A stretch of DNA of 64,000 bases. Source: an uncultured Alphaproteobacteria bacterium. GTDB lineage: Bacteria > Pseudomonadota > Alphaproteobacteria > Rs-D84. This document shows positions 19,597-43,641 of this stretch, in pieces. The stretch is taken from NCBI GenBank assembly GCA_944393245.1, contig CALXZM010000002.1, positions 124,001-188,000 on the forward strand, in the 5' to 3' direction. How positions within the stretch are numbered: position 1 is the first letter of the stretch; each line of letters opens with the position of its first letter. The translations under genes and the position numbers were made by a program. The notes beneath the pieces are model-generated. The model did not search any database and had not been told where the DNA came from. It was given only the letters and a program-made list of their open reading frames with translations.

Positions 19597-19693
19597 ACTT
19601 CGTCACCTGGCAAAATTGCGCTGCGCGCAACTGGCGTACGCCCGTCCGCCTTTTTGCGGCGGTTCGAACCTTTGCCACAGGTTCAATTCCTGT

Positions 19694-19769
19694 TGGTATC
19701 CCCAACAGGAATCGAACCTGTATCAAGGGTTTAGGAAACCCCCGTTCTATCCAGTTGAACTATGGGGAC
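19694..19769 (-). tRNA. tRNA-Arg (CCT anticodon)
   Basis: A 76-nt cloverleaf with CCA encoded (complement of 19694-19696). The acceptor stem GTCCCCA pairs with TGGGGAT, with a G-U first pair. The anticodon loop TTCCTAA reads AGG (Arg), and the T-arm is GGTTCGATTCC. The 17 nt from within the T-loop to the discriminator base are repeated exactly 116 bp downstream, and an inverted copy of the T-arm (GGAATTGAACC) lies just past the CCA. Confidence 0.95.
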
Positions 19770-19802
19770 AGTGCATTATATTTTATTCACATATTTTTAA
19801 TA

Positions 19803-19831
19803 TTGCAAGTTGTAATCACGACTTGTATAAT
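19803..19831 (+). promoter_or_regulatory. Consensus promoter of fabH-ihfA
   Basis: -35 TTGCAA (19803-19808), 17-bp spacer, -10 TATAAT (19826-19831). It lies 30 nt upstream of the fabH ATG, between divergently oriented tRNA-Arg and fabH. Confidence 0.8.
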
Positions 19832-19860
19832 ACGCCGAATAAAATAAAAGGAAAGGCAAA

Positions 19861-20799
19861 ATGGGAAACAGATTAATTGGTTATGGTTCTTATTTGCCCG
19901 AACGGGTTGTAACTAATTTCGATTTGGAAAAGATAGTCGACACATCCGACGAATGGATTGTTCAACGCACAGGTATGCGTGAACGTCATTTTGCACGCGA
20001 TGATGAAACTGTTGTCGATATGGCCACAATCGCGGCCCAACGGGCATTGGATAATGCACATGTTTCTATAAATGACATTGATTTGGTAATCGTTGCAACA
20101 ACTTCACCTGAATTGGATTTTCCATCCGTCGGGGTCCAGGTTTTGGGACGATTGGGGGCGTCTAATAACGCACCGGCATTTGACGTACGGGGGGCTTGCA
20201 CGGGATATATTTATGCATTACACTGTGCACGCGCGTTTTTTACGTCCGGGATACACAAACGCATAATGCTTATCGGGGCGGAAAAAATGTCACGATTTAT
20301 AGACTGGGGTGACCGCAGCACGGCCGTGTTATTTGGCGATGGTGCGGGCGCACAGATATTCGAACATTCCACGTCCAGTTATTCGGGAATTATTGATACC
20401 GTCGTAATGTCTGATGGACGTGAAATGGGAATGTTATATGGAACACCGGACCATCACATTATGATGAATGGACCAGAAACATATAAAAAGGCTGTAACCC
20501 TGATGCCAGAGGCCGCCAGTTACATCATGGAACATGCCGGAATTACCGCAGATAACGTCGATTGGATTATTCCACACCAGGCGAATCTGCGTATTATTCA
20601 AAGTGGCGCGCAACGTTTGGGATTCCCATTGGAAAAAATTGTTGTCACGGTGGACAAACATGCAAATACCAGTGGCGCATCCGGCGTACTTGCAATGTCG
20701 TACGCAATAGATAATAATATAATTAAAAAGGGACAACTTGTTCTGTATCCTGCGTTTGGCAGTGGCCTGACATGGGGTGCGGCATTAATCAGGGTGTAA
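19861..20799 (+). CDS. fabH: 3-oxoacyl-ACP synthase III (KAS III)
   Basis: A 312-residue thiolase-fold enzyme. The catalytic triad is Cys113 in GACTGYIYAL, His239 in IPHQANLRI and Asn269 in NTSGASG. The N-terminal GYGSYLPERVVTN and the DEWIVQRTGMRERHFA motif are typical of FabH. It condenses acetyl-CoA with malonyl-ACP to start fatty-acid synthesis in the cytoplasm. AAAGGAAAGG lies upstream of the ATG and a consensus promoter just before it. The ihfA gene follows after 3 bp, an arrangement common in alphaproteobacteria, where plsX-fabH-ihfA often form one block. Here plsX is 10 kb away with rpmF. Confidence 0.95.
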   Translation: MGNRLIGYGSYLPERVVTNFDLEKIVDTSDEWIVQRTGMRERHFARDDETVVDMATIAAQRALDNAHVSINDIDLVIVATTSPELDFPSVGVQVLGRLGASNNAPAFDVRGACTGYIYALHCARAFFTSGIHKRIMLIGAEKMSRFIDWGDRSTAVLFGDGAGAQIFEHSTSSYSGIIDTVVMSDGREMGMLYGTPDHHIMMNGPETYKKAVTLMPEAASYIMEHAGITADNVDWIIPHQANLRIIQSGAQRLGFPLEKIVVTVDKHANTSGASGVLAMSYAIDNNIIKKGQLVLYPAFGSGLTWGAALIRV

Positions 20800-20802
20800 A
20801 AA

Positions 20803-21090
20803 ATGGCAACAATAACCAGAAGTGATTTTGCAAACCGTTTACGTGAACGTTTTGGCGTTACCACAACTGATGCGCTGAAATTGGTTGATATTATATTTGA
20901 CGAAATTCGCGAATCTTTGATTAATGGCGAAGAAGTTAAGTTCGCCGGATTTGGCAGTTTCAAAATTTTGGCAAAGCCACAACGTATGGGCCGAAATCCT
21001 AAGACAGGCGCACCGGCGGTCATAACCGCACGACGCGTGGCTTCTTTCCGCCCCAGTAATGAATTTAGAAAGCGGGTTGCGAAAAAGTAA
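20803..21090 (+). CDS. ihfA: Integration host factor subunit alpha
   Basis: This 95-residue HU/IHF-family protein is of the alpha type: ITRSDFANRLRERFGVTTTDA, EEVKFAGFGSFKILAK and the DNA-contact arm RMGRNPKTGAPAVITARRVASFRPS, with the intercalating Pro in NPKTG. It binds and bends DNA as a heterodimer with IHF-beta, which is not in this window. It lies 3 bp after fabH, so both come from the same promoter, and a terminator follows. Confidence 0.93.
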   Translation: MATITRSDFANRLRERFGVTTTDALKLVDIIFDEIRESLINGEEVKFAGFGSFKILAKPQRMGRNPKTGAPAVITARRVASFRPSNEFRKRVAKK

Positions 21091-21092
21091 TA

Positions 21093-21120
21093 AAAACACC
21101 GGAAAAAGCCGGTGTTTTTT
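21093..21120 (+). terminator. Terminator of fabH-ihfA
   Basis: Stem ACACCGG/CCGGTGT with an A-rich loop, followed by TTTTTT. Confidence 0.85.
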
Positions 21121-21189
21121 ATCGCGTTTATGCAATTATAATATTTTTTGAAAAATGGCCGGTAAATGCCGGGCAAAAAAGGAAGTAAA

Positions 21190-22275
21190 ATGAAAATATA
21201 TGATCAAACCGAATTAGATTTCAAAGATGTATTGGTAAAGCCAAAACGTTCATTTATTAATTCACGATCCGAAGTAGAAGTTACCCGCGAATACAAATTC
21301 AAATGGTGCCCACGTCGCATCGTTGGCACGGGCATAATTTCTGCAAATATGGCAACTGTTGGTACATTCCAGGTCGCAAAACATATGATGCAAAACAAAA
21401 TGTTTTGTTGTTTGCATAAACATTATGAAATTGACGATTTGATAAAATTCATAACTGAAAATGATTGTCGCGATTATGTATTTTTATCCATGGGACTGCG
21501 CGACGAAGATTATAAAAAAATTGAAACCATATTAACCGAATATCCCGACAAATGTCGCAATATCTGCATTGATGTTCCGAACGCATATATTCCACGCGTC
21601 AAAGAATTAGTTATCAAAATGCGCGAAAAATTTCCTGATATATTGCTGATGGTTGGCAATGCGGTAACGGCCGAATTGGTCGAAGATTTAATTTTATCCG
21701 GTGCCGACATTGTAAAATGTGGCATTGGCAGTGGCAGCGCATGCATAACCCGCCGAATAACCGGTGTTGGCCGGCCACAATTATCAACCATATTTGAATG
21801 CGCGGATACCGCCCACGGTATTGGCGGCATGATTTGCAGTGATGGCGGTGTTGTATATGTTGGCGATATATGCAAGGCATTTGGTGCCGGGGCTGATTTT
21901 GTTATGATGGGCGGTTTTTATGCCGGATGTCCCGAAGCCGCGGGCGATATCATTGAAAAGAAATTTATCACCGGCCAAATCGACGAAAAGACCGGCGAAC
22001 GTGTTATTGAAACCAAACGGTTCAAAGTCTTTTACGGCATGTCATCTGAATATGCACAAAACAAACACTATCACGGCATGCCGAAATACCGCGCCAGCGA
22101 GGGTCGTGTTGTCGAAGTACCACTGCGCGACCCAATAGACAAAATGAACCAGGATATTTTGGGTGGATTGCGTTCATACATGACATACATTGGCGCACGC
22201 CGATTAAAAGACGTGTCAAAATGCACAACGTTTTATCGTGTAAACACGCAATTAAACACTGTGTTTGGTGAATAA
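21190..22275 (+). CDS. guaC: GMP reductase
   Basis: The protein is 361 residues from the ATG at 21190, with AAAGGAAG just upstream; the in-frame codon at 21166 is not used in this view. It is an IMPDH/GMPR-family TIM barrel. DFKDVLVKPKRS opens the domain, KCGIGSGSACITRRITGVG holds the catalytic Cys, and DGGVVYVGDICKAFGAGADFVMMGGFYAG is the phosphate-binding loop. The YGMSSEYAQNK segment and the lack of a CBS insert distinguish it from IMP dehydrogenase. It deaminates GMP to IMP with NADPH, linking guanine salvage to the adenine branch. It is single, with its 3' end meeting the PLD-family gene tail to tail. Confidence 0.92.
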   Translation: MKIYDQTELDFKDVLVKPKRSFINSRSEVEVTREYKFKWCPRRIVGTGIISANMATVGTFQVAKHMMQNKMFCCLHKHYEIDDLIKFITENDCRDYVFLSMGLRDEDYKKIETILTEYPDKCRNICIDVPNAYIPRVKELVIKMREKFPDILLMVGNAVTAELVEDLILSGADIVKCGIGSGSACITRRITGVGRPQLSTIFECADTAHGIGGMICSDGGVVYVGDICKAFGAGADFVMMGGFYAGCPEAAGDIIEKKFITGQIDEKTGERVIETKRFKVFYGMSSEYAQNKHYHGMPKYRASEGRVVEVPLRDPIDKMNQDILGGLRSYMTYIGARRLKDVSKCTTFYRVNTQLNTVFGE

Positions 22276-23865
22276 TTAAACAAATTTTTCCGGGACCAGG
22301 TTGGTAAGTATTTTCCACGCCCGACGAAATACTGATGTATCCGGACTGTGATGATACACACGCGGTTGTTTATCGCCGGGGCGACTGCCGGTCCAGACGG
22401 GATCACCATCCGAATTCAACGTTACGTGCCATGACGTTTTGGTATCCTGGATAATCATGTTACGTAATTTGTCGGCAAAATCACGACTTTCAAAAACAGC
22501 AACGTTTTCAGTATTATAATATGCACTGCGCGGATCCAGGTTAAAACTGCCAATCCATGAAATATCGTCATCAAACACAATTGTTTTACTGTGCATTACA
22601 GAAAAACTGGATTGCCTGCGTTCGCGGTCGTGTTCACGCCCACGCAGGTTTTCAGCAGATAACATAAATTCATATATATCCGCCCCAGATTCAATCAACT
22701 GCTTTCTGTACTTTTCCCACTTTGCATATACCGTCGGTGCATTTGTTGATGCCAACGAATTTGTAACAATTGTCATGTGAACACCGGAATTTTCTTCACG
22801 TAACATGTGTTCCAAACCACCCTGGCCCGGGACAAAATATGCCGCAGACATATAAACAGAATCCGTTGTTCTGTCCCACAGACGTTGCAATGCAGTGATT
22901 ATTTCACCACGATATTCCTCTTTTTCAGACATGGACATTTCAACCTTGGACGGTGGGTCAGCCAAAAATTTTCCACGTCCCCAACTGAAATCAAATTTTT
23001 TGTTTTTATATTCGTCCTGGGCCAATAAAATGATTTTATTGTATTCACGTATTGCGTCCGCACTTTTACGTTCTATATCTTTAAACTTTTGTTCCAATTT
23101 ACGCATGGCGCGTTCGGATTTCGCCTTTGGAAAAACAGACGCCGGTATTGCCAAATGATAATTCCAATATTCGTCAAAACTGGCCGTGGCATATTTCGTC
23201 ATATCGCCGATAAACAACACGTCGGTATCAGAAAAGTTCGATGCCGTTTCAGGGTAAAAATAATTACTGCCAACATTGCGGCCCCCCGTTATGTATGCAA
23301 CGTTATCAACAATAAACAATTTATTATGCATACGCGAATTTAAACGGTTAAAGTCCAATAAAAATTGCGGATAATACAGCAATCTGGAACGATTTGCCAC
23401 AGGATTGAAAACTTTAACCTCTATATTCGGATGTTGGTTCAGTAACATTACGTCCGCAATATCGGATTTAGTACCATAATCATCCAATAAAATTCGCACC
23501 TTGACCCCACGGTCAGCCGCACGCTTTAATTCACCAATTAAAACCTTGGACGAAAAATCATTACTGTAAATATATGTTTGCAAATCAATGGTCTTGGTCG
23601 CCATACGGGCAAATGCGGCACGAATTACAAATGCCGACAGGCCATCTTCTATTAATGTGGCACCACTGATATCCGGGCCAGATGCCAATTCCGATGCATA
23701 GCACTGCGCCAACGGGGTCTGAATAGGATCATAATCGAAATCAGTGGCGGTAACCTTTGGCACATAATTGGCCAACCGTTCATCAGTCGTTGATGTCGGT
23801 ATCACCGTACACCCCATAAACGGCAGTGTAAATATGAATAAAGACGCCTTTTTCAAGAAAGACAA
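22276..23865 (-). CDS. PLD-family lipoprotein, cardiolipin-synthase-like (ClsC/YmdC type)
   Basis: The protein is about 529 residues from a TTG at 23865, chosen because AGGGGT lies 8 nt upstream and the product then begins MSFLKKASLFIFTLPFMGC, a plausible lipoprotein signal with Cys as lipid site. An ATG at 23922 lacks this context. Two HKD motifs are present: HNKLFIVDNVAYITGG and HSKTIVFDDDISWIGSFNLDPRS. The overall order matches the YmdC/ClsC branch of phospholipase D enzymes, which make cardiolipin from two phospholipids. If it is a lipoprotein it would act on the periplasmic side, unlike ClsA. A consensus promoter sits 40-67 nt upstream. Confidence 0.8.
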   Translation of the reverse strand: MSFLKKASLFIFTLPFMGCTVIPTSTTDERLANYVPKVTATDFDYDPIQTPLAQCYASELASGPDISGATLIEDGLSAFVIRAAFARMATKTIDLQTYIYSNDFSSKVLIGELKRAADRGVKVRILLDDYGTKSDIADVMLLNQHPNIEVKVFNPVANRSRLLYYPQFLLDFNRLNSRMHNKLFIVDNVAYITGGRNVGSNYFYPETASNFSDTDVLFIGDMTKYATASFDEYWNYHLAIPASVFPKAKSERAMRKLEQKFKDIERKSADAIREYNKIILLAQDEYKNKKFDFSWGRGKFLADPPSKVEMSMSEKEEYRGEIITALQRLWDRTTDSVYMSAAYFVPGQGGLEHMLREENSGVHMTIVTNSLASTNAPTVYAKWEKYRKQLIESGADIYEFMLSAENLRGREHDRERRQSSFSVMHSKTIVFDDDISWIGSFNLDPRSAYYNTENVAVFESRDFADKLRNMIIQDTKTSWHVTLNSDGDPVWTGSRPGDKQPRVYHHSPDTSVFRRAWKILTNLVPEKFV

Positions 23866-23904
23866 TCGATTACCCCTATATGTTGAATACACAATATGCA
23901 ACAT

Positions 23905-23932
23905 ATTACAACATATAATCACACAATGTCAA
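23905..23932 (-). promoter_or_regulatory. Promoter of the PLD-family gene
   Basis: -35 TTGACA (23932-23927), 16-bp spacer, -10 TGTAAT (23910-23905). The expected start near 23898 gives a leader of about 33 nt to the TTG start at 23865. Confidence 0.7.
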
Positions 23933-24068
23933 ATTCATTAAATAATTTAACAAATTATGATATTAGTCATATCAGAACTAATTATTTTTATGTTTGAATT
24001 TTCTATTTTTTGTTTGCGCGTTTTTGCGTATTATGATAAAATCTGTGTAATAGAAGGGAAGATTTCGC

Positions 24069-26258
24069 ATGAAAAGATTGATTGCTGTACTTAGTGGATT
24101 ACTGGTTTTGCCCGCATTTGCAGAGATTGCGCCACAATATTATTACGAAGAATTGATGGCACAATATGCTGATGAAATGCCGGACATGGAATTCGTTGAC
24201 ACAGAAATTGATGTCACCGATGACACTGATACCCAGGAAACAGAACCTGTTACACCGGTCGTTCCCACAGCGGTCAGTCCACGTAATGCAAATGGTCGTG
24301 CCGCTGCATCCCGCGCGATTGTATCATCAAACACCAGTTCTGGACGCAATATCGCGGCCCGCAATGTAACAAATGCAACAACGGCCCGCACGGTCAGCAC
24401 GCGCCCAACAACAGTTACCACAAAAACAAACACAACATCACGCGCAGCAACAACCAATACTGGACGCAGTGCGGTTTCACGTGGGGCAACATCGCGCACA
24501 CAAACAGCGCGCACAACCGCAACAAATACTGTGGCGAACCGTCCAACGGCGACTGTTCGTTCAACCGGCACACAAAATACTGTGTCCACAACACAACCTG
24601 GGTTAACAACACGCACGTCCAGCACCAGAACAACTGGTGCCAACACAACACGCGCGTCAATTCTGCAAACAGACACGGTTAATTCACCGTTATATATCAG
24701 CAGCCGCGTCGGTGTCAGCAATACTGCAAACGTAACATCGCGTGTACCAACAATCCGCGTTGGTTCGTCTGCAACCGGTACTGCCGCGACAACCGCATCA
24801 GAAACAACGACTTCATCAACAACATCAATTGATGAATTGGCGCAATTGACCGATTATTGCAAGGCGCAATATGTTGCATGTATGGATAATTTCTGTAACG
24901 TTTTGGATGACAACCAGGGCCGTTGCAGTTGCAGTGCTAATCTGAAAAACTATGCCGAAACAGAAGCGGCACTGAAACAGGCAACCGAAGATTTACAGGA
25001 TGTTGCAATGCAAATCCAGTATATCGGTTTAACCGCAGACGAAGTTGAAACACTGTTCACCCAGACCGAGGCTGAATTAGAACTGCAAACCAGCAGTGAT
25101 AACAGTCAATTGAAAAATGATTTGGATAAAATCAAAAATATGATTATCGACGTTGAATCTGGCAAAGCCACATCAACAACGTCCAGCGGGTTAAGTTTGG
25201 ATTTATCTGGGTTATTGGATTTCACAATTGACAGTACTGGATTTAATCTGGCCACACTGTTTGGAACCAACAACAACACAGACAGCATCAGCAATCAGCG
25301 TGGTGAACAATTGTATGAAACAGCCGCCTCTCGATGCAAATCAGCCGTTTTGAACAGCTGTGCCGCCCAGGGCGTTGATATAACAATTATTACAAATTCA
25401 TATGACCTGGAAATAGACAAGGCGTGTATCGCATATGAACGCAATCTGACCGACGCAAACGATCAAATGTCATCAACCGTACGCAATGCGAAAAGTGTTC
25501 TGCAACGCGCACGTTTGTTGGTGGCCCAACAAAAGAATCAGTATGACCTGCGCGGGTGTGTAAATGCGTTGGATACATGCATGCAGGACGATTTCGTATG
25601 TGGCGACGATTATGAAAACTGTCTGGATCCAACCGGCAAATATATTGTCGCAGGCGAAGTAGTTGTCGGCAGTAAACCTGGCGCACCAGGCGAAGAAACA
25701 TCTGATATTTATGGAACGTGGACATATACCGATTCTGAATCACAAACCAAAAAGGCGTGGTTCGATGGCACGTTAAGCGAATACATCGAAACCACGGTAA
25801 AAGATGGCGCCGCAGCCAAGACATCTGTAAACATGTCTGAATTCCTGCAAAATAAAATCGGTTATCACGACGATGACGATGGCAAGAATTACGGTATGTG
25901 CATGTCTGTATTGAACAGATGCCAGGATATAACATATCAGGGCAGTGGCCAAAATGCCAAATACGTGCCAACAAATAACGTGATAAAGGAATTCTTGAAC
26001 CGTACGTTGGTGCAAATAAAGTCATCCCAGGATACTATTTTGGCAAACTATGCCGAAGAATGTATAACGGACGTTGCATCATGTTTGGCACAAAATAATT
26101 ATAACGTCAATAACGACGGTGGCAGTGGTAATAACATAGCCATCCGTGCATGCAATCCTATTATTACCACATGCATGAGTGTAAATGGCGTTACGGGTGA
26201 TTTGGACGGCGGAACAATAACTGCCGAAGACTGGATTAAGGATATTATGAGCAATTAA
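24069..26258 (+). CDS. Secreted Thr/Arg-rich protein with Cys-rich C-terminal half
   Basis: A 729-residue protein I do not recognise. A signal peptide (cleavage after AFA, residue 18) is followed by an acidic stretch. Residues 68-254 are a low-complexity region of Thr, Ala, Ser and Arg, basic and probably disordered. The rest is helical and Cys-rich, with the repeated pattern YCKAQYVACMDNFC, GRCSCSANL, GCVNALDTCMQDDFVC, GMCMSVLNRC and ACNPIITTCMSV, which suggests periplasmic or surface disulfides. A coiled-coil-like segment (residues 285-370) lies between. GAAGGGAAG lies upstream of the ATG; a terminator follows. A surface stalk or peptidoglycan-contacting role is possible but unproven. Confidence 0.7.
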   Translation: MKRLIAVLSGLLVLPAFAEIAPQYYYEELMAQYADEMPDMEFVDTEIDVTDDTDTQETEPVTPVVPTAVSPRNANGRAAASRAIVSSNTSSGRNIAARNVTNATTARTVSTRPTTVTTKTNTTSRAATTNTGRSAVSRGATSRTQTARTTATNTVANRPTATVRSTGTQNTVSTTQPGLTTRTSSTRTTGANTTRASILQTDTVNSPLYISSRVGVSNTANVTSRVPTIRVGSSATGTAATTASETTTSSTTSIDELAQLTDYCKAQYVACMDNFCNVLDDNQGRCSCSANLKNYAETEAALKQATEDLQDVAMQIQYIGLTADEVETLFTQTEAELELQTSSDNSQLKNDLDKIKNMIIDVESGKATSTTSSGLSLDLSGLLDFTIDSTGFNLATLFGTNNNTDSISNQRGEQLYETAASRCKSAVLNSCAAQGVDITIITNSYDLEIDKACIAYERNLTDANDQMSSTVRNAKSVLQRARLLVAQQKNQYDLRGCVNALDTCMQDDFVCGDDYENCLDPTGKYIVAGEVVVGSKPGAPGEETSDIYGTWTYTDSESQTKKAWFDGTLSEYIETTVKDGAAAKTSVNMSEFLQNKIGYHDDDDGKNYGMCMSVLNRCQDITYQGSGQNAKYVPTNNVIKEFLNRTLVQIKSSQDTILANYAEECITDVASCLAQNNYNVNNDGGSGNNIAIRACNPIITTCMSVNGVTGDLDGGTITAEDWIKDIMSN

Positions 26259-26275
26259 TCCAACAAAACACAAAT

Positions 26276-26300
26276 AAAACGGGGCGTTATGCCCCGTTTT
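26276..26300 (+). terminator. Terminator of the Thr/Arg-rich protein gene
   Basis: Stem AAAACGGGGC/GCCCCGTTTT with a GTTAT loop; A/T flanks make it active mainly on the plus strand. Confidence 0.85.
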
Positions 26301-26373
26301 TATTACTGATAAACGTAATCAATCGCATAAATAATGCAAAACAAAGCACATCATACAAATGTGCAATTCAAGA

Positions 26374-26820
26374 TTATGAAATTGTTAAGTTTGGCCGGGC
26401 GGCACGCAAATTATTTAGTGACCGTTCCTGGGCAGCACGGAATGCATCCGGATTCCAAATTTGAAAACTGTTACCACGACCAACAAATATGGCAGTGTCT
26501 GTAATACCAGCATGTTTCAACAAATCGGCCGGAATAACAATACGCCCCGTCACATCAAATGCCAACGGGCGCGCGTCCGCAAACAACATTGCCGACAAAT
26601 CGTCCAATTCACTGTCAAACACACCCATTTTATCCGTGGCCGATGCCAATTGTTCCATACGGGACATGGACAGACCCTCTATACAATTATGGGTAAAAGA
26701 ACGATACAAAACAACACCCGGGAATTTTTCAGATGCAACCGAAGCCCGGAAAGATGCCGGAACGGATATACGCCCCTTGGTATCCAAACGATTTTCATAA
26801 GATGAGAGAAACAATGACAT
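26374..26820 (-). CDS. mraZ: MraZ transcriptional regulator
   Basis: This 148-residue protein has two tandem SpoVT/AbrB-like MraZ repeats. Each carries the DxxxR-type signature: RLDTKGRISVPASFR at residues 11-25 and AFDVTGRIVIPADLL near 86-100. MraZ is a ring-forming DNA-binding protein that represses its own operon, normally the first gene of the division-and-cell-wall (dcw) cluster with rsmH, ftsL and ftsI. Here it stands alone: its downstream neighbour is convergent and unrelated. A promoter with iterated 9-bp boxes across its -35 region lies upstream, consistent with self-repression. The leader before the ATG is about 50 nt with no good ribosome site next to the start. Confidence 0.93.
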   Translation of the reverse strand: MSLFLSSYENRLDTKGRISVPASFRASVASEKFPGVVLYRSFTHNCIEGLSMSRMEQLASATDKMGVFDSELDDLSAMLFADARPLAFDVTGRIVIPADLLKHAGITDTAIFVGRGNSFQIWNPDAFRAAQERSLNNLRAARPNLTIS

Positions 26821-26878
26821 TTTTTAGGTCTTTGTTTTGGGCATCTGCCCCGGTGTTCCTTTCCTTGGCTTCACTGAA

Positions 26879-26907
26879 AATTTAGCACGGCATTTTATGG
26901 TTGTCAA
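26879..26907 (-). promoter_or_regulatory. mraZ promoter
   Basis: -35 TTGACA (26907-26902), 17-bp spacer, -10 TAAATT (26884-26879). The spacer contains one of the iterated boxes. Confidence 0.75.
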
Positions 26908-26941
26908 TGACATTTTATAATTATTTTATGGGATTTTATGG
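26892..26941 (-). promoter_or_regulatory. Probable MraZ operator: four iterated 9-bp boxes
   Basis: ATTTTATGG occurs at 26892-26900, 26923-26931 and 26933-26941, with a near copy (ATTTTATAA) at 26912-26920. All are on one strand, at steps of 20, 11 and 10 bp. MraZ binds direct repeats about one helical turn apart upstream of its own gene, so this array overlapping the mraZ promoter fits autoregulation. The E. coli box sequence (TGGG-based) differs. Confidence 0.6.
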
Positions 26942-27201
26942 TTTTGTAAGTAAAATCATATTAATTAAAAATAAATTTAAAATAATTGTATTTTATGCTT
27001 GACCTGCGATTCGTTTTTGTTCTAAGATGTTTGTATAGACAAGGAGAAAAGAGTTAAAAGCCCCAGTTTTCCGCAAAAAATCCGGATTTCTGGCAAAAAT
27101 AAAAATCAACACGAAATTTCATTTTTATTTTTTGTAAATACCTGTGTACATACAAAAAATAATCTGATTTTTCATCAAAACCCGAAAGGAGGGACCGCAC
27201 A
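26942..27201 (+). promoter_or_regulatory. AT-rich leader of the 111-residue gene, with a promoter
   Basis: TTGACC (26999-27004) with an 18-bp spacer and TAAGAT (27023-27028) form a likely plus-strand promoter. The transcript would then have a leader of about 165 nt. An AAGGAG at 27041-27046 has no start codon within reach. The working site AAAGGAGGG is at 27185-27193. No other gene is visible here. Confidence 0.5.
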
Positions 27202-27537: not shown

Positions 27538-27602
27538 ATGTTCGGCCCGTGCGGTCCATTGGGCATAATCACAGTTTCTGGTCTAACCAGAAGGAGGGGA
27601 GA

Positions 27603-27633
27603 AATCACCGGCAAGTAATTGCCGGTGATTTTT
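27603..27633 (+). terminator. Terminator of the 111-residue gene
   Basis: Perfect 12-bp stem (27603-27614 with 27619-27630), GTAA loop, T-run. A purine-rich AAGGAGGGG at 27590-27598 immediately precedes it without a reading frame. Confidence 0.85.
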
Positions 27634-27641
27634 ATTTATTA

Positions 27642-30353: not shown

Positions 30354-30427
30354 TTTTCCCCCGATATTTTTTGATATATACAGGGTTTGCAAAAATGCGA
30401 ACAATATCAATACGGACGTTTTCCCAA

Positions 30428-30449: not shown

Positions 30450-30456
30450 CAATATT

Positions 30457-31866: not shown

Positions 31867-31889
31867 TATTTGTATCGGCCCTGTACCCT

Positions 31890-35999: not shown

Positions 36000-36030
36000 T
36001 ATATTTTGCTCCTTTCAAAGGGTTCAATAC

Positions 36031-36059
36031 CGGTGTCGGTGACATGTCACCGAACACCG
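36031..36059 (-). promoter_or_regulatory. Intercistronic palindrome between rpoB and rpoC
   Basis: A perfect 16-nt palindrome CGGTGACATGTCACCG (36037-36052) extends outward by six further pairs around one bulged base. It has no T-run on the minus strand, so it is more likely an RNA processing or stability hairpin than a terminator. Confidence 0.45.
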
Positions 36060-36065
36060 ACATTT

Positions 36066-39000
36066 TTAGTCTATTTTCTTTGGTGTTAACGCCAATCCCA
36101 AACCACGCAGTTCGCGCATCAGCACATTAAATGCCTCTGGCGTGCCGGTCTGGAAATCGTTACTGCCGGATATGATGGCTTCATACATTTTGGTACGGCC
36201 GACAATATCGTCCGATTTTACGGTCAACATTTCGCGCAACAGGTGGGCGGCACCATGTGCTTCCAGTGCCCAAACCTCCATTTCACCCAAACGCTGACCA
36301 CCCATGTGGGCCTTGCCCGACAATGGCTGTTGTGTTACCAAAGAATAATTGCCAGTTGAACGTGCGTGAATCTTTTCATCAACCAAGTGATGCAGTTTCA
36401 GCATGTACATTACACCAACTGTTACAGGACGTGCAAACTTTTCACCAGTCATACCGTCATACAGGGTGAATTGACCCGTTTCCGGTAATTTGGCCAGTTT
36501 CAGCATGCGTCTGATGTCATCTGATGTGGCACCGTCAAATGTCGGCGTTGCCATCGGAACACCATCGCGCAACAATGCGGCTTCGGCACGAACATCTGTA
36601 TCGGTCATCTTTTCCAATTTTTCAGCCGTTTCTTTGCCATAGATTTTGCCCATAATCGTGCGCAAATCATCTGTCACGGCACGTTTTTGTTTGACCTCTT
36701 CCAGAACGGCACCAATTTGTTGGCCCAATGTACGCGCCGCCATCCCCAGGTGGGTTTCTAAAATCTGGCCCAGGTTCATACGCGACGGCACACCCAACGG
36801 ATTTAACACCAGGTCAACTGGGGTGCCATCTTCCATATATGGCATGTCTTCGATTGGAACAACCTTGGACACAATACCCTTGTTACCGTGACGCCCAGCC
36901 ATTTTGTCACCCGGTTGCAGTTTCATTTTGTGTGCAATGTAAACCTTTACCGTTTTCAAAACACCGGCACCCAAAGAGTTTGTTTCTGTTGCCTTGGCAA
37001 CTTCGGCATCGGCCTTGTCATTCAAAGCCTTTAACTTTGCCACGTGTTGTTCACGCAGTTCGTCAATTTTTGCCTGGGCATCTTTATCACTTACAACCAA
37101 TTTCTTTACATCGGATGGTTTGATGCCCTCGAATACTTCCTGGGTTAATTTTTTGCCGATGAATGGTTTCAAACTGCCGGTGCCTGCATCTATTACCAAA
37201 CCTTCGGCGATTTGGAATATCTGATCGGCAAAGCCACGTTCCATGATGGACGTTTCCTCTTCACGGTCACGATTTATCTTTTCTATCTTTTGCAGTTCAA
37301 TCATCTGGGTGCGTTCGTCTTTCTTGACACCATGACGTGTCAAAACGTTCACACCGATAACTGTACCCTCTTCGTTCGGACCAACACGCAGTGATGTATC
37401 CTTTACATTTAATGCCTTTTCACCAAAGATGTTGCGTAACAATGCCTCTTCTGGGGTCAGCAATGTTTCAGATTTCGGTGATACGCGACCAACCAAAATA
37501 TCCCCCTGTTTCACGCGGGCACCAACATAAATGATTCCGGATTCGTCCAGATTCTTTAATGCCTCTTCGCTGACATTCGGAATATCGCGGGTCAAACTTT
37601 CAGGCCCCAACTGAGTGTCACGAACCTTGAATTCTTTTTCAACAATTTTTACAGACGTAAATACGTCGTCGCGTGAAATGCGTTCGGAAATAACAATTGA
37701 ATCTTCATAGTTATATCCACGCCACGGCACGAACGCAACCAGTACATTGCGTCCCAACGCCAATTCACCGTAATTCATTGATGAACCGTCTGCAATAATG
37801 TCACCCGCAGAAACACGATCGCCAACCTTTACCAACGGTTTTTGATGTATCAGGGTTTCACTGTTGCTGCGTTCGAATTTTTCCAGGTTATAAATATCAA
37901 CACCGGTCACAACATTGCGGCTGTTCATACATTTTACCACAATGCGGTTCGCATCAACAGATTCAACAACACCACTGTGCTTGGCCGCAACACCGGTGCG
38001 GGAATCACGCGCAACTTCGCGTTCTATGCCGGTACCAACCAATGGGGCCTGGACACGCAGTAATGGAATTGCCTGGCGCTGCATGTTTGATCCCATCAAT
38101 GCACGGTTCGCGTCGTCGTTTTCAACGAACGGTATCAATCCAGTTGCAATGGACACCACCTGGCGCGGTTCAACGTCGATTAAATCAATTTCTTCCTTGG
38201 GCACCATGGTGAATTCACCATCAACGCGCGCGGTTACAACATCTTCGGCCAAAACACCATCAGACCCGGTCGGGGTATTACCCTGGGCAATTTTATGCCC
38301 CAATTCTTCGTCCGCAGTCAGATATACCATTTTGTTGGTGATTTTACTGTTTTCAACCACGTAATATGGTGTTTCAATAAAGCCATATGGATTAACACGT
38401 GCATATGTTGCCAAATGGTTAATCAGTCCGATATTGCCACCTTCGGGGGTGTTAATCGGGCACAAACGGCCATAATGCGTCGGATGTACGTCGCGGACAT
38501 CAATACCCGCACGATCACGATTCAAACCGCCCGGCCCCAATGCAGAAATACGACGCTTGTGTTCCAGTTCGGACAGCGGATTATACGCATCCATAAACTG
38601 AGACAACTGGGACGTACCCAAAAATTCGTTTACCAGTGACATCAACGGTTTTACATTGATAACATCCTGGGGCTGCATATTGGCAATGTTTGGTGAAGAC
38701 AAACTTTCACGAACCAGACGTTCAATACGAACCATGCCTGTGCGGAAATTCTGTTCCAGCAATTCGCCAACCGTGCGAACACGACGATTTGACAGATTAT
38801 CAATATCATCAACCGTATCTTTGTGATCAATAATATTAGTCAACGTCTTTAATACGGCCAAGAAATCTGATTTAGTCAACAAACGTTCATCTTCGGGCTT
38901 TTTACCAGAATCTATTTTTAAACGCTTGTTCATCTTGAAACGGCCAACCGCCGATAAATCATAATATGCCGCGTCAAAGCCCTGACGCATGAACAGATTA

Positions 39001-40205
39001 ATGGCTGCTTCCAGTGTTGGACGTTCACCCGGACGAATGATATTGTATATTTCAATCAAGGCTTCTTCGCGGTTAACGGTCTTGTCCGCAATCAACGTAT
39101 TGCGCATGTGGGCCGTAACTGTTGTATTATCAATGGCAATTAATGAAATTTCATGCACATTCATTTTTTCTAAATCAGCCATCACATCTGGTGTGATTTC
39201 TGTGCCTGCGCGCCATACAACATTGCCCGCACCGTCCAAAATCGGGTCAAACAAATATTCCCCAATCAGTGAATCTGGCATAATGCCAAATTCATTGGAT
39301 GCGTCCATAACACGTTTCAGGCGTTTTGCATTCATACGGTCGCCCTTGGACGCCAATGGCTTTTTATCACGCGGATTAATCAAATCATAATTCAGGCGGT
39401 ATTTATCCAAACCCGCAAATGCAGATGTTTGGCCAACCCACATATTGCCATCAAATTTCAACGGAATACGATTATAGAATACCCCCAGAATTTCAGTATC
39501 GTCCATGCCACGGATTGTTGGTTTGCGCGGATCCGCAACCCATTTCTTTTCATCTTCTGCGGATGGCAAACAGCGCAACAGCACAGTCGCCGGAATTTTA
39601 CGACGACGGTCGATACGAACATAAATAACACCCTTGGATTCTTCGAAATCAATCCATGAACCATGTTCTGGGATAATACGCGCAGTATAAGTAATAGGAT
39701 TGCCAGCAATTTTTGCTTCCTTGGTGGTGGCGAACACAACACCCTGGGCACGATGCATTTGGGAAACAATGACACGTTCCACACCGGCGGCAATAAAACT
39801 GCCACGTTCGGTCATTAACGGAACGTCGCCCATGAATATTTCCTGTTCCTTTATATCACGCAATGTTTTTTTGCCGTCTTCGGCAACGTCCCATAAAATC
39901 AATCTCAGCTTCAGCTTTAATTTACTGGAATACGTCAGATTGCGCAACATGCATTCTTTTACATTATATACAGGCTTGTCCAAAGTATATTCGACGAATT
40001 CCAAATCAGCGATTCCAGCGTAATCCTTGATTGGGAACATTGACGCAAAAACATTTTGCAGACCGATATTTTTTCTGCTTTGCGGGTCTACATCTGCCTG
40101 CAAGAAATCTTTGTAAGAATTATATTGAATCTCGACTAAATCAGGAAGCGGAGTTTGCAAAAAACTTTTTCCAAAAGATTTTCTGAATTTCTGGATAACT
40201 GCCAT
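36066..40205 (-). CDS. rpoB: RNA polymerase beta subunit
   Basis: The protein is about 1379 residues from the ATG at 40205 (MAVIQKFRKSFG), preceded by AAAGGATTGATACC; codons up to 40247 are upstream readthrough. The fork/rifampicin region is recognisable: FLGTSQLSQFMDAYNPLSELEHKRRISALGPGGLNRDRAG, with the wild-type residues at Gln, Asp, His and Ser positions commonly altered in resistant mutants. The C-terminal GEMEVWALEAHGAAHLLREMLTVKSDD clamp segment is present. It is the catalytic partner of beta'. It lies in the tRNA-Trp to rpoC block, between rplL and rpoC, with an attenuator-like hairpin upstream. Confidence 0.98.
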   Translation of the reverse strand: MAVIQKFRKSFGKSFLQTPLPDLVEIQYNSYKDFLQADVDPQSRKNIGLQNVFASMFPIKDYAGIADLEFVEYTLDKPVYNVKECMLRNLTYSSKLKLKLRLILWDVAEDGKKTLRDIKEQEIFMGDVPLMTERGSFIAAGVERVIVSQMHRAQGVVFATTKEAKIAGNPITYTARIIPEHGSWIDFEESKGVIYVRIDRRRKIPATVLLRCLPSAEDEKKWVADPRKPTIRGMDDTEILGVFYNRIPLKFDGNMWVGQTSAFAGLDKYRLNYDLINPRDKKPLASKGDRMNAKRLKRVMDASNEFGIMPDSLIGEYLFDPILDGAGNVVWRAGTEITPDVMADLEKMNVHEISLIAIDNTTVTAHMRNTLIADKTVNREEALIEIYNIIRPGERPTLEAAINLFMRQGFDAAYYDLSAVGRFKMNKRLKIDSGKKPEDERLLTKSDFLAVLKTLTNIIDHKDTVDDIDNLSNRRVRTVGELLEQNFRTGMVRIERLVRESLSSPNIANMQPQDVINVKPLMSLVNEFLGTSQLSQFMDAYNPLSELEHKRRISALGPGGLNRDRAGIDVRDVHPTHYGRLCPINTPEGGNIGLINHLATYARVNPYGFIETPYYVVENSKITNKMVYLTADEELGHKIAQGNTPTGSDGVLAEDVVTARVDGEFTMVPKEEIDLIDVEPRQVVSIATGLIPFVENDDANRALMGSNMQRQAIPLLRVQAPLVGTGIEREVARDSRTGVAAKHSGVVESVDANRIVVKCMNSRNVVTGVDIYNLEKFERSNSETLIHQKPLVKVGDRVSAGDIIADGSSMNYGELALGRNVLVAFVPWRGYNYEDSIVISERISRDDVFTSVKIVEKEFKVRDTQLGPESLTRDIPNVSEEALKNLDESGIIYVGARVKQGDILVGRVSPKSETLLTPEEALLRNIFGEKALNVKDTSLRVGPNEEGTVIGVNVLTRHGVKKDERTQMIELQKIEKINRDREEETSIMERGFADQIFQIAEGLVIDAGTGSLKPFIGKKLTQEVFEGIKPSDVKKLVVSDKDAQAKIDELREQHVAKLKALNDKADAEVAKATETNSLGAGVLKTVKVYIAHKMKLQPGDKMAGRHGNKGIVSKVVPIEDMPYMEDGTPVDLVLNPLGVPSRMNLGQILETHLGMAARTLGQQIGAVLEEVKQKRAVTDDLRTIMGKIYGKETAEKLEKMTDTDVRAEAALLRDGVPMATPTFDGATSDDIRRMLKLAKLPETGQFTLYDGMTGEKFARPVTVGVMYMLKLHHLVDEKIHARSTGNYSLVTQQPLSGKAHMGGQRLGEMEVWALEAHGAAHLLREMLTVKSDDIVGRTKMYEAIISGSNDFQTGTPEAFNVLMRELRGLGLALTPKKID

Positions 40206-40271
40206 TGGTATCAATCCTTTATTTTTTGCGTTTTGCAAACGAAACAATTTTATATATTTTTACGCCTTTGT

Positions 40272-40300
40272 GCCCACCTGGGAAAAAATCCCAGGTGGGC
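40272..40300 (-). promoter_or_regulatory. Attenuator-like hairpin between rplL and rpoB
   Basis: A perfect 12-bp stem (40272-40283 with 40289-40300), 5-nt loop, in the 154-nt rplL-rpoB gap. There is no T-run directly after it on the minus strand. In E. coli a partial attenuator and an RNase III site sit at the same place and set the ratio of ribosomal protein to polymerase; the same role is inferred. Confidence 0.55.
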
Positions 40301-40359
40301 GGCGTTTGCGTGACATTTGTCACGACTTTGTATTTTTGAACCATACGGTTCGGGATGAA

Positions 40360-40725
40360 TTATTTCAATTCAACCTTGGCACCGGCCGCTTCTAATGTAG
40401 CCTTCATTTTTTCGGCTTCATCTTTGGCGACGCCTTCTTTTACAGCCTTTGGTGCAGATTCAACCAAGGCTTTTGCTTCGCCCAGGCCCAAACCTGTGAT
40501 GTCTTTGACTGCCTTGATAACTGCCAATTTGTTTGCACCAACATCGGACAGAACAACGTCAAATTCCGATTTTTCTTCGGCGGCGGCAGCGGCCGGACCA
40601 GCTGCAACTGCAACTGCGGCGGCGGCACTAACGCCCCATGTTTCTTCCAATGCCTTGGACAGTTCGACTGCTTCCATAACAGTCAATTTTGACAATTCTT
40701 CAACTAATTTTTGAATGTCTGCCAT
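40360..40725 (-). CDS. rplL: 50S ribosomal protein L7/L12
   Basis: A 121-residue protein of normal length. The N-terminal dimerisation helix ([23 protein letters not shown]), Ala-rich hinge ([19 protein letters not shown]) and C-terminal factor-binding domain ([38 protein letters not shown]) are all clear. It forms the ribosomal stalk with L10, recruiting translation GTPases. It lies downstream of rplJ in one transcript. Confidence 0.97.
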
Positions 40726-40768
40726 TTTTTGCTCCTATATAATCAGAACATTGATGTTCTGGTTTGTT

Positions 40769-41245
40769 TTAATTCTTTTTTCCATACTCTGCGGAAACGC
40801 GGGCCAGGCGCGACGCCGGTTCGACCAGAATGCGCGCAATTTTGCCACGGATTTCCAACAGGGACGGCAGTTTGGATAATTGCAAAATATCGTCTTTGCT
40901 TAAAACACCCGCATCCATTTTACCGCCAACAATTGTCAAATTCGGATGTTCATCTGCGAATTTGGCCAATACCTTGGTCACAGCCAGTCCATCTGTTGCA
41001 ACCGCAACAGCCGTTGGACGTGCCATCATGTCAGATACAGGTTCGAAATCGGTATCTTTTAATGCCAATTTCATCAAACGGTTTTTGACAACTTTGAAAA
41101 CAGAAACCAATGGGCGCAGTTCATTGCGCAGGGCTTCAAATTCTTTTACAGTCAAACCATGGTTTTCAACAACGAAAACACCGTTTGCTTCCTTCAAGGA
41201 CGATTGCAACGCTGAAATCAAATCTGATTTTTCTTCGCGTCTCAT
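40769..41245 (-). CDS. rplJ: 50S ribosomal protein L10
   Basis: A 158-residue protein, slightly shorter than E. coli L10 (165). It begins MRREEKSDLISALQSSLKEANGVFVVENHGLTVKE and contains LRNELRPLVSVFKVVKNRLMKLALKDTDF, the rRNA-binding part. The C-terminal helix carries L7/L12 dimers. The 208-nt gap upstream resembles the L10 leader through which L10-L7/L12 represses translation of its own message. Confidence 0.95.
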   Translation of the reverse strand: MRREEKSDLISALQSSLKEANGVFVVENHGLTVKEFEALRNELRPLVSVFKVVKNRLMKLALKDTDFEPVSDMMARPTAVAVATDGLAVTKVLAKFADEHPNLTIVGGKMDAGVLSKDDILQLSKLPSLLEIRGKIARILVEPASRLARVSAEYGKKN

Positions 41246-41453
41246 ATCTTTACCCTTATCTGCAAGATTTCAGGTTTTACCCCAAAATCCCTGTTTTGTT
41301 AAACTTTCCATCCAACGTTGCCGTTGGGTGGGGCCTGATTCTGCCCCAAAGAATTTTTCTTTGTCTATGATGGCAATTAAGTCCAGAATGCTGGGCACCA
41401 TCAGTCTTGGACAGAAATCTGTACGCGGTGGGGAAATTCCCCGCCGCGATTTA
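41246..41453 (-). promoter_or_regulatory. Probable L10 (rplJL) mRNA leader
   Basis: A 208-nt non-coding gap between rplA and rplJ, by far the longest in the ribosomal-protein part of the operon. It contains several short inverted repeats, including GGGGAATTTCCCC just after rplA, and G/C-rich stems around 41320-41350. By analogy with the Rfam L10 leader it would bind L10-(L7/L12). Assigned by position and structure, not by covariance. Confidence 0.5.
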
Positions 41454-42128
41454 TTATTTTATATCAACCTTTAATCCAGGACCCTGGGTTGTCGCAATTG
41501 CAGCACCCAAAATATATTGGCCCTTGACCGATGCAGGTTTAACTTTTTTCAACTGATCAACCAATGCATTTACATTTTCGACCAATTTGTCCGTTGAAAA
41601 TGACATTTTGCCAACACCGGCATGAACAATGCCATTCTTTTCAGCACGGTATTCAACCTGGCCCGCCTTGGCAGTGGTGACTGCGTCGGCAACATTGTTT
41701 GTAACCGTACCCAATTTTGGATTCGGCATCAAACCCTTTGGCCCCAGAATACGGGCAATCTTTGACATTTTTGGCATCATATCAGGTGTCGCAATAACAC
41801 GGTCAAAATTAATTTCACCGGCCGCAACACGTTCAATCAAATCTTCACCGCCAACAATATCTGCCCCGGCTTTTTTGGCTTCGTCCGCACTGTTAACGGT
41901 AAACACTGCAACACGAACTGTTTTACCAGTACCATTTGGCAAAGATACCATGCCACGGATATTTTGGTCGGCCTTGGTCACATCAACACCCAAACGGATT
42001 GCGATTTCCAGGCTTTCATCAAACTTTTTAGACGCATATTCACGCAATGCTTCTATGGCATCGGCAACAGAATAAACATTATCCTTGTTCAATTTTGCCC
42101 AAGTTTGCTGTCTTTTCGTAACTTTCAT
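41454..42128 (-). CDS. rplA: 50S ribosomal protein L1
   Basis: A 224-residue protein. It shows the L1 signature GTGKTVRVAVF and the second-domain DMMPKMSKIARILGPKGLMPNPKLGTVT, with the C-terminal KPASVKGQYILGAAIATTQGPGLKVD. It binds 23S rRNA at the L1 stalk and also autoregulates rplKA in other bacteria. It starts 3 bp after the rplK stop, so translation is probably coupled. Confidence 0.97.
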   Translation of the reverse strand: MKVTKRQQTWAKLNKDNVYSVADAIEALREYASKKFDESLEIAIRLGVDVTKADQNIRGMVSLPNGTGKTVRVAVFTVNSADEAKKAGADIVGGEDLIERVAAGEINFDRVIATPDMMPKMSKIARILGPKGLMPNPKLGTVTNNVADAVTTAKAGQVEYRAEKNGIVHAGVGKMSFSTDKLVENVNALVDQLKKVKPASVKGQYILGAAIATTQGPGLKVDIK

Positions 42129-42131
42129 GTC

Positions 42132-42566
42132 TTATTCCTCCACCTTTACGCCCATTGAACGGCACTGACCCGCAACAATGTTCATCGCGGATTCAATGGT
42201 AGAGCAATTCAAGTCCGGCATTTTGTTTTCAGCAATCTCTTTAATCTGTGCTTTTGTTATTGTGCCAACAAAATCACGACCCGGTTTATGAGAACCGATT
42301 TTCAATTTCAATGCTTTTTTGATATAGTACGATACCGGCGGCAGTTTCATAATAAATTCAAAACTGCGGTCCGTATAAACCGTGATTATGCACGGAATCG
42401 GCATACCCGGTTCTTTATCAGCCGTTTTATCATTAAACTGTTTGCAGAATTCTGCAATATTAACACCAGCCGCACCCAACGCCGGCCCAATCGGTGGCGC
42501 AGGATTCGCCTGCTTTGCGGGAACGACCAGTTTGACCACTCCCTTGACTTCTTTTTTTGCTGCCAT
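42132..42566 (-). CDS. rplK: 50S ribosomal protein L11
   Basis: The protein is 144 residues from the ATG at 42566, with TGGAGTG upstream. The signature [36 protein letters not shown] is complete, as is the C-terminal rRNA-binding region ([33 protein letters not shown]). L11 forms the GTPase-associated centre and is needed for stringent-response RelA activation. It is followed directly by rplA. Confidence 0.97.
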
Positions 42567-42661
42567 TTTGTTCACTCCATTTTTGGTTAGTGTTCGTGGT
42601 ACGATGTGGCGCATCTACCACGTATTTATGCATGCCTTGCACATGCCCGTCGGTTACCCGA

Positions 42662-43195
42662 TTAAACCCTTTCGACCTGTTCGAAATCCAATTCAACACT
42701 GGTTTCACGACCAAATACCAATATGGTTGCAGTCATTTTCTGTTTTACATTGTCCACTTCGGCCACAACGCCATTAAATCCAGAAAACGGCCCGTCGATT
42801 ACGTGCACTTCCTGGCCAACATCGTATGTGACATCTTCGGCGACAACACTGCCCTCTTCCACCTGTTTTAACAGACGGCGGGCCTCTTCTTCACTTACTG
42901 CAATTGGTTTATTTTTAGCACCCAAAAACATTACAACCTGGGGCATTAATTTTACCAGGGAAAACGTTTCATTATTCATAACCATCTGAACAACTATATA
43001 CCCCGGGAAAAACTTTTTTTCAGTCTTTACACGTTTGCCGGCCTTGATTTCCGTAATTTCACGCGTTGGAACCAAAATTTCGCCAAAATACGCATTCAGG
43101 CGACGTTTGTCTATTTGTTCGCGCAGGCCGCGCGCAACCTTGTCTTCGCACCCGGTATGAACGTTCACAACGAACCATTGCATTTTATCTTCCAT
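42662..43195 (-). CDS. nusG: Transcription antitermination factor NusG
   Basis: The protein is about 177 residues from the ATG at 43195 (AAAGGG 9 nt upstream); an ATG at 43183 is an alternative. The NGN domain begins MQWFVVNVHTGCEDKVARGLREQI, and the C-terminal KOW domain reads GQEVHVIDGPFSGFNGVVAEVD. It binds RNA polymerase at the beta' clamp and couples it to Rho or the ribosome. It starts 19 bp after the secE stop. Confidence 0.96.
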   Translation of the reverse strand: MEDKMQWFVVNVHTGCEDKVARGLREQIDKRRLNAYFGEILVPTREITEIKAGKRVKTEKKFFPGYIVVQMVMNNETFSLVKLMPQVVMFLGAKNKPIAVSEEEARRLLKQVEEGSVVAEDVTYDVGQEVHVIDGPFSGFNGVVAEVDNVKQKMTATILVFGRETSVELDFEQVERV

Positions 43196-43214
43196 CTCTA
43201 CACCCTTTGCCCGT

Positions 43215-43394
43215 TTAGAAAATCCAACCAACCAGCGCGTTCAGAATACTGTCAACCACAAAAAAGAACAACGCCGCAACACCAGAAAATACCAAAATCA
43301 TGATAGTTGCACGAATAACACTGTCACGTGATGGCCATACAATTTTAAACCATTCACTGCGCACAGATTTGATATAATCCAGTATTTTTTTCAT
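43215..43394 (-). CDS. secE: Preprotein translocase subunit SecE
   Basis: A 59-residue single-TM SecE: a short amphipathic helix (ILDYIKSVRSEWFKIVWPSRDSV) with the family WP-S/T motif, then one membrane helix (ATIMILVFSGVAALFFFVVDSIL). It is part of SecYEG in the inner membrane. The ATG at 43394 has only a weak ribosome site; codons upstream to 43514 run into the duplicated tRNA fragment and are not used. tRNA-Trp lies just upstream, the classic order. Confidence 0.93.
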   Translation of the reverse strand: MKKILDYIKSVRSEWFKIVWPSRDSVIRATIMILVFSGVAALFFFVVDSILNALVGWIF

Positions 43395-43436
43395 AAAAAA
43401 TCGCCCATATATTAATAAATCCCCAAAAATACGCCC

Positions 43437-43476
43437 CGCGTATTTTGAAAAATTTTGTGACAGGGGCAGAAGGAAT
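43437..43476 (-). repeat. Duplicated 3' fragment of tRNA-Trp plus flank
   Basis: A 40-bp direct repeat of 43621-43660 with 38 identities. It covers the tRNA-Trp 3' end from the T-loop through CCA and the next 21 nt. It lies 184 bp downstream of the true tRNA end and just upstream of secE. Confidence 0.85.
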
Positions 43477-43641
43477 GTTCGGCTTTGCCTTACCACTCGT
43501 ACGGATTTCGCCACGTTACACTTGCAAAATCCAACTCGTATGCGAACCCAACATATTACTTATTCGGGTTCAATTCCATCCGCCCACAGCAAAAATCCCA
43601 AAATTTTCCAAAACACGACCCGCGTATCTTGAAAAATTTTG

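Follow-up and report, generated by a model that had tools for sequence, protein, structure and literature searches.

Background

Genomic islands of the type collected by Islander restore the 3' end of the tRNA gene in which they reside, leave a displaced fragment of it in the same orientation at their far end, and can form tandem arrays. Here we analyse a window, i.e., a whole stretch of 64,000 nucleotides (nt) from an uncultured alphaproteobacterium of the order Rs-D84 (assembly GCA_944393245.1, contig CALXZM010000002.1, positions 124,001 to 188,000), in which a tRNA-Arg (CCT) gene and a tRNA-Trp gene are each followed by a short unit that ends in a second copy of the 3' end of its own tRNA. 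As at an island, an intact tRNA is thus accompanied by a displaced 3' fragment that is oriented in the same way. Unlike islands, the units carry no genes and have a median length of 157 bp, measured from CCA to the displaced end; neither an integrase in the element, which at 67-351 bp holds no integrase gene, nor a resident cognate integrase was found. Islander rejects candidates below 2 kb (PMC4383910), and therefore its survey could not see these units.

Other described repeats resemble the units in part. Rickettsia palindromic elements are small, folded, gene-less repeats of reduced alphaproteobacterial genomes, located mainly in coding genes and moved by an unknown agent. Judged by this description and not by sequence, they are like the units in size, fold and lack of genes, while the units differ in standing behind tRNA genes and in matching the tRNA. 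In the passage of PMC5799277 that concerns them, these elements are named only as infesting Rickettsia. Gene-less integron cassettes also form tandem, folded units at one site, whereas the source genome of the window has no integron integrase and the frame of the units comes from a tRNA. tRNA-like structures and tRNA-derived short interspersed nuclear elements mimic the acceptor and T-arm half and end in CCA as the units do; in general outline they differ from the units, which are bacterial and reuse no more of the tRNA than its 3' part, in the neighbour's own sequence. REP/RAYT and IS200/IS605-derived repeats are likewise folded and gene-less, and GTAG before a hairpin, the REP motif, occurs, though not invariantly, in many units with the type of core that we call B; a Y1 transposase was found in only 1 of 59 genus genomes, and membership of these groups is rejected. 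In the bridge-RNA elements of IS110, a guide-like segment is complementary to the target sequence that surrounds the site of insertion, and the units likewise have a target-complementary segment; no match to PF01548 was found in the 59 genus genomes, and membership of IS110 is rejected too. To our knowledge, no described system has a target-matched tRNA frame with interchangeable cores. It is this combination that is new, while as small gene-less repeats the units are of a familiar sort.

From the relatives that carry the type-B motif, the source genus would be Candidatus Enterousia, which is placed in the order Rs-D84 and has reduced genomes (PMC12306168). The words "tRNA" and "repeat" are absent from the main text of that paper, and such units are not described in the titles and opening abstract lines of the open-licence papers searched.

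Layout of the units

The original prediction from the window is supported insofar as it sees in these loci a family of small, non-autonomous units fixed to a single point in the T-arm. Along the tRNA, the units run from CCA through an often present terminator-like hairpin, an inverted segment, a hairpin loop, GGTTCR and a core termed X to an AATCC-type 3' half of the T-loop, the T-stem strand, the acceptor strand and CCA. This anatomy was read from 95 units at 208 usable tRNA genes, a biased sample whose loci were fetched largely by type-B matches and which includes two ordinary partial tRNA copies (L053, L156-Ala). A second half-arm that differs from the tRNA's own T-arm by one mismatch at most was found in 86/95 units and was exact in 79, and odd T-arm bases (GTTTG, GGTTCA, GAGTTCG) were common to tRNA and unit in 6/6 tRNAs; by eye, an odd CGTTCG is likewise common to both at L044. 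Because the half-arm copies match the own T-arm, X can be placed between T-loop positions 57 and 58 of that tRNA's T-arm copy in those 86 of 95 units. The insertion point itself may fall anywhere in 17-19 nt from the T-loop to CCA, and therefore the predicted targeting of the T-loop is unsupported. In units with a second half-arm, X measures 46-166 nt (median 73), and most of the long examples consist of two successive cores. Several unlike core types share one frame, and similar cores stand at different tRNAs; the types other than B (C, A, D, the AT-rich E, and F) were sorted by motif and eye only. At two single tRNAs (L012, L066) unlike cores stand in tandem.

The layouts claimed for the two window loci, both on the minus strand, were confirmed when the sequence was read. 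The intact tRNA-Arg (CCT) gene (19694..19769, called by ARAGORN and the Rfam tRNA model, with the encoded CCA at 19694-19696) overlaps an inverted copy of its own 3' end (19678..19696, CCAACAGGAATTGAACCTG) that starts within this CCA and supplies the 5' strands of P1 and P2, the predicted pairings with the displaced 3' end and with GGTTC, respectively. The inverted T-arm, GGAATTGAACC, precedes the second 5' half of the T-arm, GGTTCG (19665..19670), which is the 3' strand of P2; then come a type A core X of 68 nt (19597..19664) and the displaced 3' end ATTCCTGTTGGGGATAC (19580..19596), a 17-nt direct repeat that is absent from the empty relatives L246 and L263. In the predicted fold (z -4.45) the segment 19678-19696 pairs with 19580-19596. 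The core is 75-82% like stretches elsewhere in the same genome (C4:10268/10434, C2:40029, C1:138558/138384).

The intact tRNA-Trp gene (CCA anticodon, 43642..43715, from the tRNA call) lies upstream of an open reading frame (ORF) that we take to be secE. Straight after its CCA stands a hairpin without a T-run (HP0, 43597..43641); hairpins of this type are terminator-like at many other tRNAs and missing from the Arg-CCT unit of the window. It is followed by the inverted copy of the tRNA 3' end (GTGGGCGGATGGAATTGAACCCG, 43565..43587), which the fold pairs with 43458-43476, the second T-arm 5' half GGTTCG (43543..43548), a type C core X of 66 nt (43477..43542) whose P3 stem is, by eye, common with type B, and the displaced 3' end ATTCCTTCTGCCCCTGTCA (43458..43476), a 19-nt direct repeat with one mismatch. 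Beyond it lies a diverged second post-CCA hairpin (43421..43457). Comparable cores stand behind tRNA-Trp in 10 relatives. The Trp unit folds with a z of -3.97, and the antisense strands of the Arg and Trp units also fold well (-4.65 and -2.52). That a single element had diverged at both loci was not borne out: types A and C differ by eye and common descent of the two inserts is rejected, so that their near-equal lengths (68 and 66 nt) are no evidence of shared descent, the inserts belonging to different types.

Several loci depart from the general layout. Two type-B cores stand directly in a row with no tRNA 3' end between them at L255, L151 and L086. At tRNA-Pro-TGG (L077, G004:C8) both tandem units have an inverted type-B core near the border of acceptor and T-stem and not at the T-loop, which may be due to an inversion or to an independent insertion of X alone. 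The AT-rich hairpin core type E, beginning like ATACGAGAATA, occupies the same region at L079, L082, L156, L162 and L093, in several of them behind a type-B core. A highly conserved type F insert without a recognisable second half-arm occurs at tRNA-Gly-TCC (L008, L091, L098, L126), followed in the source genome (L008) by another tRNA gene. In a type-B core 82 nt behind tRNA-Lys (L181), the P3 hairpin has an apex enlarged by some 40 nt, and on a small contig (L062, G007:C33) the tRNA in front of a type-B unit is reduced to a remnant of its 3' end; upstream, motifs like AATTTCCCTGT are repeated.

Match to the neighbouring tRNA

The predicted inverted T-arm proved an incomplete description, since the match runs past the T-arm; the inverted segment pairs with the T-arm half, in many units also with the acceptor strand, and in some up to CCA. 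Over 86 units, the P1 duplex with the own displaced 3' end has a mean energy of -15.4 kcal/mol vs -12.1 with those of other isotypes. Permutation across the 21 isotypes gave the same picture, with an observed mean of -14.8 vs -12.0 (standard deviation 0.43) and 0/5000 permutations as low, and the Trp isotype ranked 1 of 21 when own and swapped duplexes were compared. At the Arg-CCT locus, CCA could fold onto TGG at 66-68, and its extension would give the inverted segment, one base off; read from the letters, this foldback suggests a form of self-primed copying.

Fold and covariation of the type-B core

In the type-B core, 99.3% of cells are paired vs 86.2% in shuffled alignments (30 rows), and 63 double-change cells were counted vs 18.3 +- 4.6 in shuffles, a number not reached in any of 500. 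Slid controls, in which the partners were moved by 1-3 columns, were 26-47% paired. The rows derive from 67 type-B cores, 36 of which were kept (GAAC strand, outliers removed) and 30 of these used; because the GAAC strand was required, the count covers only rows that fit the P2 pattern. The possibility that the inserts have no conserved ends or structure therefore does not hold for the type-B core, which has both.

Occurrence in the source genome and in the order

In the source genome (G000; 0.93 Mb in seven contigs) the tRNA model gives 46 places, and the stretches around all of them were taken. They comprise 45 tRNA genes and one place below the cut-off, where tRNA-Asn is partially copied next to the gene of an integrase. 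A unit stands behind 14 of the 45 genes (L008, L012, L015, L017, L021, L023, L024, L026, L028, L044, L046, L048, L051, L052), in L008 and L024 without a recognisable second T-arm half. The layout is thus shared by other tRNAs of this genome, and relatives also show it at theirs. For a 19-nt 3' end, up to 3 mismatches, 360 nt searched and uniform bases, our own arithmetic yields about 4e-5 displaced ends expected per tRNA, yet units occur at 14/45 genes, so the prediction was right to reject chance. An automatic scan gives 20 loci, of which L005, L006, L007, L020 and L049 (3-4 mismatches, no own core) and L053 were excluded. The last (G000:C2:88831) is an ordinary partial duplication in tandem that repeats tRNA-Leu from its anticodon arm onwards, without a core X. 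Tandem units are three at tRNA-Ser (L052), two each at L023, L026 and L046, two at L015, the second of them truncated, and at tRNA-His (L012) a pair that differs in type. Downstream of tRNA-Gln-CTG (L025, G000:C3:103414) lies a type-B motif with no displaced 3' end at 4 mismatches; this locus, perhaps a decayed unit, is uncounted.

A scan of named genomes for the exact type-B core motif gave at least 109 stretches, from alphaproteobacterial or unresolved proteobacterial assemblies. Among the matches listed are Candidatus Enterousia avistercoris, excrementavium and intestinigallinarum and one "Rickettsiales" assembly, and many have gut or faeces in the name of the isolate. One type-B unit used as a DNA query was matched in 28/35 genomes of the same genus and 0/24 others. 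A covariance model of type B (R1) has matches in 156/201 genomes of the order, in 7/23 genera and at up to 19 places per genome; those outside the genus are weaker and known from the model score alone. Among 385 genomes drawn from the class, R1 matched only three, all of this genus. When R1 loci were fetched, 27/30 lay 68-252 nt behind a tRNA on the same strand, 25 of these within 91 nt, and of the remaining loci two lie behind a tRNA by eye and one begins at a contig end.

Presence, absence and inheritance

Empty and occupied sites with near-identical flanks show that the unit is cleanly gained or lost. At Arg-CCT, the occupied L264 and the empty L263 differ by one clean 161-bp insertion, with ungapped flanks identical at 915/926 and 891/900 positions (98.8% and 99.0%). 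At Trp, the flanks of the occupied L226 and the empty L237 are identical at 847/925 and 836/898 positions (approximately 92-93%), and the outgroups L225 and L236 are empty. A tree of 29 Trp loci, 11 occupied and 18 empty, needs at least 6 changes of state; 30 of 56 Trp matches were fetched, and L220 was left out as its contig ends at the tRNA. The occupied L226 sits within an otherwise empty clade of 7 and looks like a gain. The nearest type-B core stands at a different tRNA class in 43/64 rows (3 of 67 were dropped, and L119 and L126 are perhaps labelled by a tRNA further upstream). Together, these results speak for vertical persistence and clean turnover, with probable movement between tRNAs in a re-matched frame.

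Search for a mover and for known families

The moving enzyme that was expected elsewhere in the genome was not found in searches for Y1, IS110, reverse transcriptase (RT) and tyrosine recombinase. As for the last, the source genome has XerD-like and XerC-like proteins (by best equivalog scores, below cut-off) and one other integrase. Only two PF00589 matches apiece are present in G010, G015, G017, G018, G024, G027, G029, G061 and G065, genomes with 3-15 type-B matches; two are expected for XerC and XerD, an identity checked in the source genome alone. Against the integron integrase model TIGR02249, two recombinases of the source genome, where this search was made, score about 107 bits vs a cut-off of 265, and the third is unlisted; integron membership is rejected, as no recombinase there passes the model. 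RT, the enzyme of retroelements (group II introns, retrons, DGRs), is matched in 24/59 genus genomes, and G015, G018, G026, G061 and G065 bear elements without such a match, by which RT as a required mover is rejected.

The RT of the source genome is nearest to the defence RT Drt2 (383 bits vs a cut-off of 390). It lies at L274 (G000:C5:40001-54000) with a large serine recombinase adjoining tRNA-Ser-GGA and an 831-amino-acid ORF resembling a type I restriction subunit by eye, a stretch that is defence-island-like. A 391-amino-acid integrase, P4-like by eye, is located with the partial tRNA-Asn copy at L060/L057 (G000:C2:2315-7337), which looks like an ordinary integrated island. As a mover this integrase is rejected, since it is unlinked to the units.

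Rfam 15 returned tRNA only for the window at gathering level and, at E up to 5 for six loci, besides tRNA only sub-gathering matches. Phages searched with one type-B unit and plasmids searched with one type-A core gave no match. In IMG/VR, two longer patterns were not found, and a 16-base pattern gave 16 stretches, which were taken as chance and not inspected.

Proposed explanation and alternatives

Starting from the layout, the coupling to the own tRNA, the type-B fold and covariation, the clean presence and absence, the taxonomic range and the unlike cores in one frame, we think it somewhat probable that the units are mobile elements without genes, here termed "tRNA-tail" elements, that belong to the order Rs-D84. 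Such an element would insert at the 3' end of a tRNA, keeping the gene whole and carrying a repeat of the gene's final 17-19 nt at the far end. As a single strand it would fold to imitate the acceptor/T-arm half of the neighbouring tRNA; the first segment would pair with the displaced T-stem, often with the acceptor strand to CCA (P1), and with GGTTC (P2), so that the folded core X projects at the T-loop position, where cores would be interchangeable. At each new target the frame may be built afresh from the target itself, or selection may favour frames that match it, and the mover could be a host activity (XerC/XerD, or replication or repair at the hairpin) or an enzyme acting in trans. The fold might act as RNA from the strand of the tRNA, which is our guess, or as single-stranded DNA. 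We infer that the direction of change was gain. A bolder and more doubtful proposal, which we hold tentatively, is that of a target-adaptive element that on arrival copies the 3' end of the new tRNA both inverted and direct, gains a pseudo-tRNA frame that protects the host tRNA, and spreads via tRNA-processing or repair enzymes with none of its own.

A number of results weigh against mobile elements of this kind. Y1 transposase (PF01797) is missing from the source genome as well as from all but one of the genus genomes and occurs in 5 of 14 controls, the IS110 DEDD transposase (PF01548) was found in none of the 59 and in 4 of 14 controls, and extra tyrosine recombinases and integrases are patchy in the genus. 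The coupling to the own tRNA is uneven, with ranks of 1-3 in 12/21 isotypes and 5-13 in the other 9, and a cruder test of P1 by contiguous pairs (66 type-B rows), after which the duplex-energy test was used, was weak (z 3.6, 69/2000 isotype permutations as high). Two of five covariation measures are unremarkable (double-change pairs 23/500, further pair types 79/500). Evidence on the strand is mixed, P3 having 11 G.U vs 0 A.C and P4a 2 G.U vs 6 A.C, and whole units show no asymmetry, the energy being lower for sense in 42 and for antisense in 41 of 85 units; in control stretches sense is lower in 116/200. Recombination between the 17-19 nt repeats can explain, as loss, part of the presence and absence. 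Trp cores track the host tree (Mantel r 0.36, p 0.005) and are less divergent than secE-nusG beside them (0.167 vs 0.227; 11 rows), and the nearest type-B core stands at the same tRNA class in 21/64 rows vs 5 in shuffles. Because cores cluster by class and Trp cores track the host, many copies are old and inherited.

These last observations would suit a structured RNA module that forms part of tRNA transcripts and does not move, active in processing or control, with rare duplication, vertical descent and precise loss mediated by the repeats. The strong type-B covariation, the failure to find a moving enzyme and the moderate agreement of Trp cores with the host tree all favour it, and repeat-mediated deletions are reported from Haloquadratum, two of them at partial tRNA repeats (PMC3119063). 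We regard this alternative as serious and yet unlikely, as it has to accommodate the occupied L226 within an empty clade, the nearest cores at other tRNA classes in two thirds of the rows (43/64), and the occurrence of unlike cores at a common insertion point and in tandem behind a single tRNA. A regenerated tRNA with a displaced 3' fragment is the classical signature of integration (PMC4383910), and non-Xer-like integrases exist in part of the genus; the units could thus belong to a tyrosine integrase with the tRNA 3' end as its attB, either as ordinary attachment scars or as miniature satellites. This is improbable, since an attachment site accounts neither for a covarying core nor for the match of the inverted segment and acceptor strand, and the nine genomes with 3-15 type-B matches hold only two PF00589 matches each.

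Still less probable are integron-like, gene-less cassettes, i.e., attC-like single-strand hairpins recombined at T-arms by XerC/XerD or another recombinase. Unlike cores in tandem arrays at one site, strands that fold about equally well and the Xer-like recombinases of the source genome would fit them, while the tRNA-derived frame and the lack, in the source genome, of a recombinase passing the integron-integrase model speak against them. Finally, an artefact of assembly or binning is practically negligible. The genomes are mostly draft metagenome assemblies, and contig ends hold a few of the units; against this, units are not confined to contig joins, the type-B core is found in 156 of the 201 assemblies of the order, and a unit is present in OX097180.1 (L195), whose title gives it as a whole chromosome.

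Significance

If the reading as mobile "tRNA-tail" elements is true, a bacterial order has hundreds of copies of an undescribed element behind its tRNA genes, hidden because the survey of tRNA islands drops candidates below 2 kb and Rfam has no family for them. The elements would then show how a parasite that lacks genes can lodge at the most conserved genes that a small genome has and leave them intact. The many tRNAs, the several cores and the empty sites would together provide a natural experiment on the processing of tRNA 3' ends and on movement without a resident transposase.

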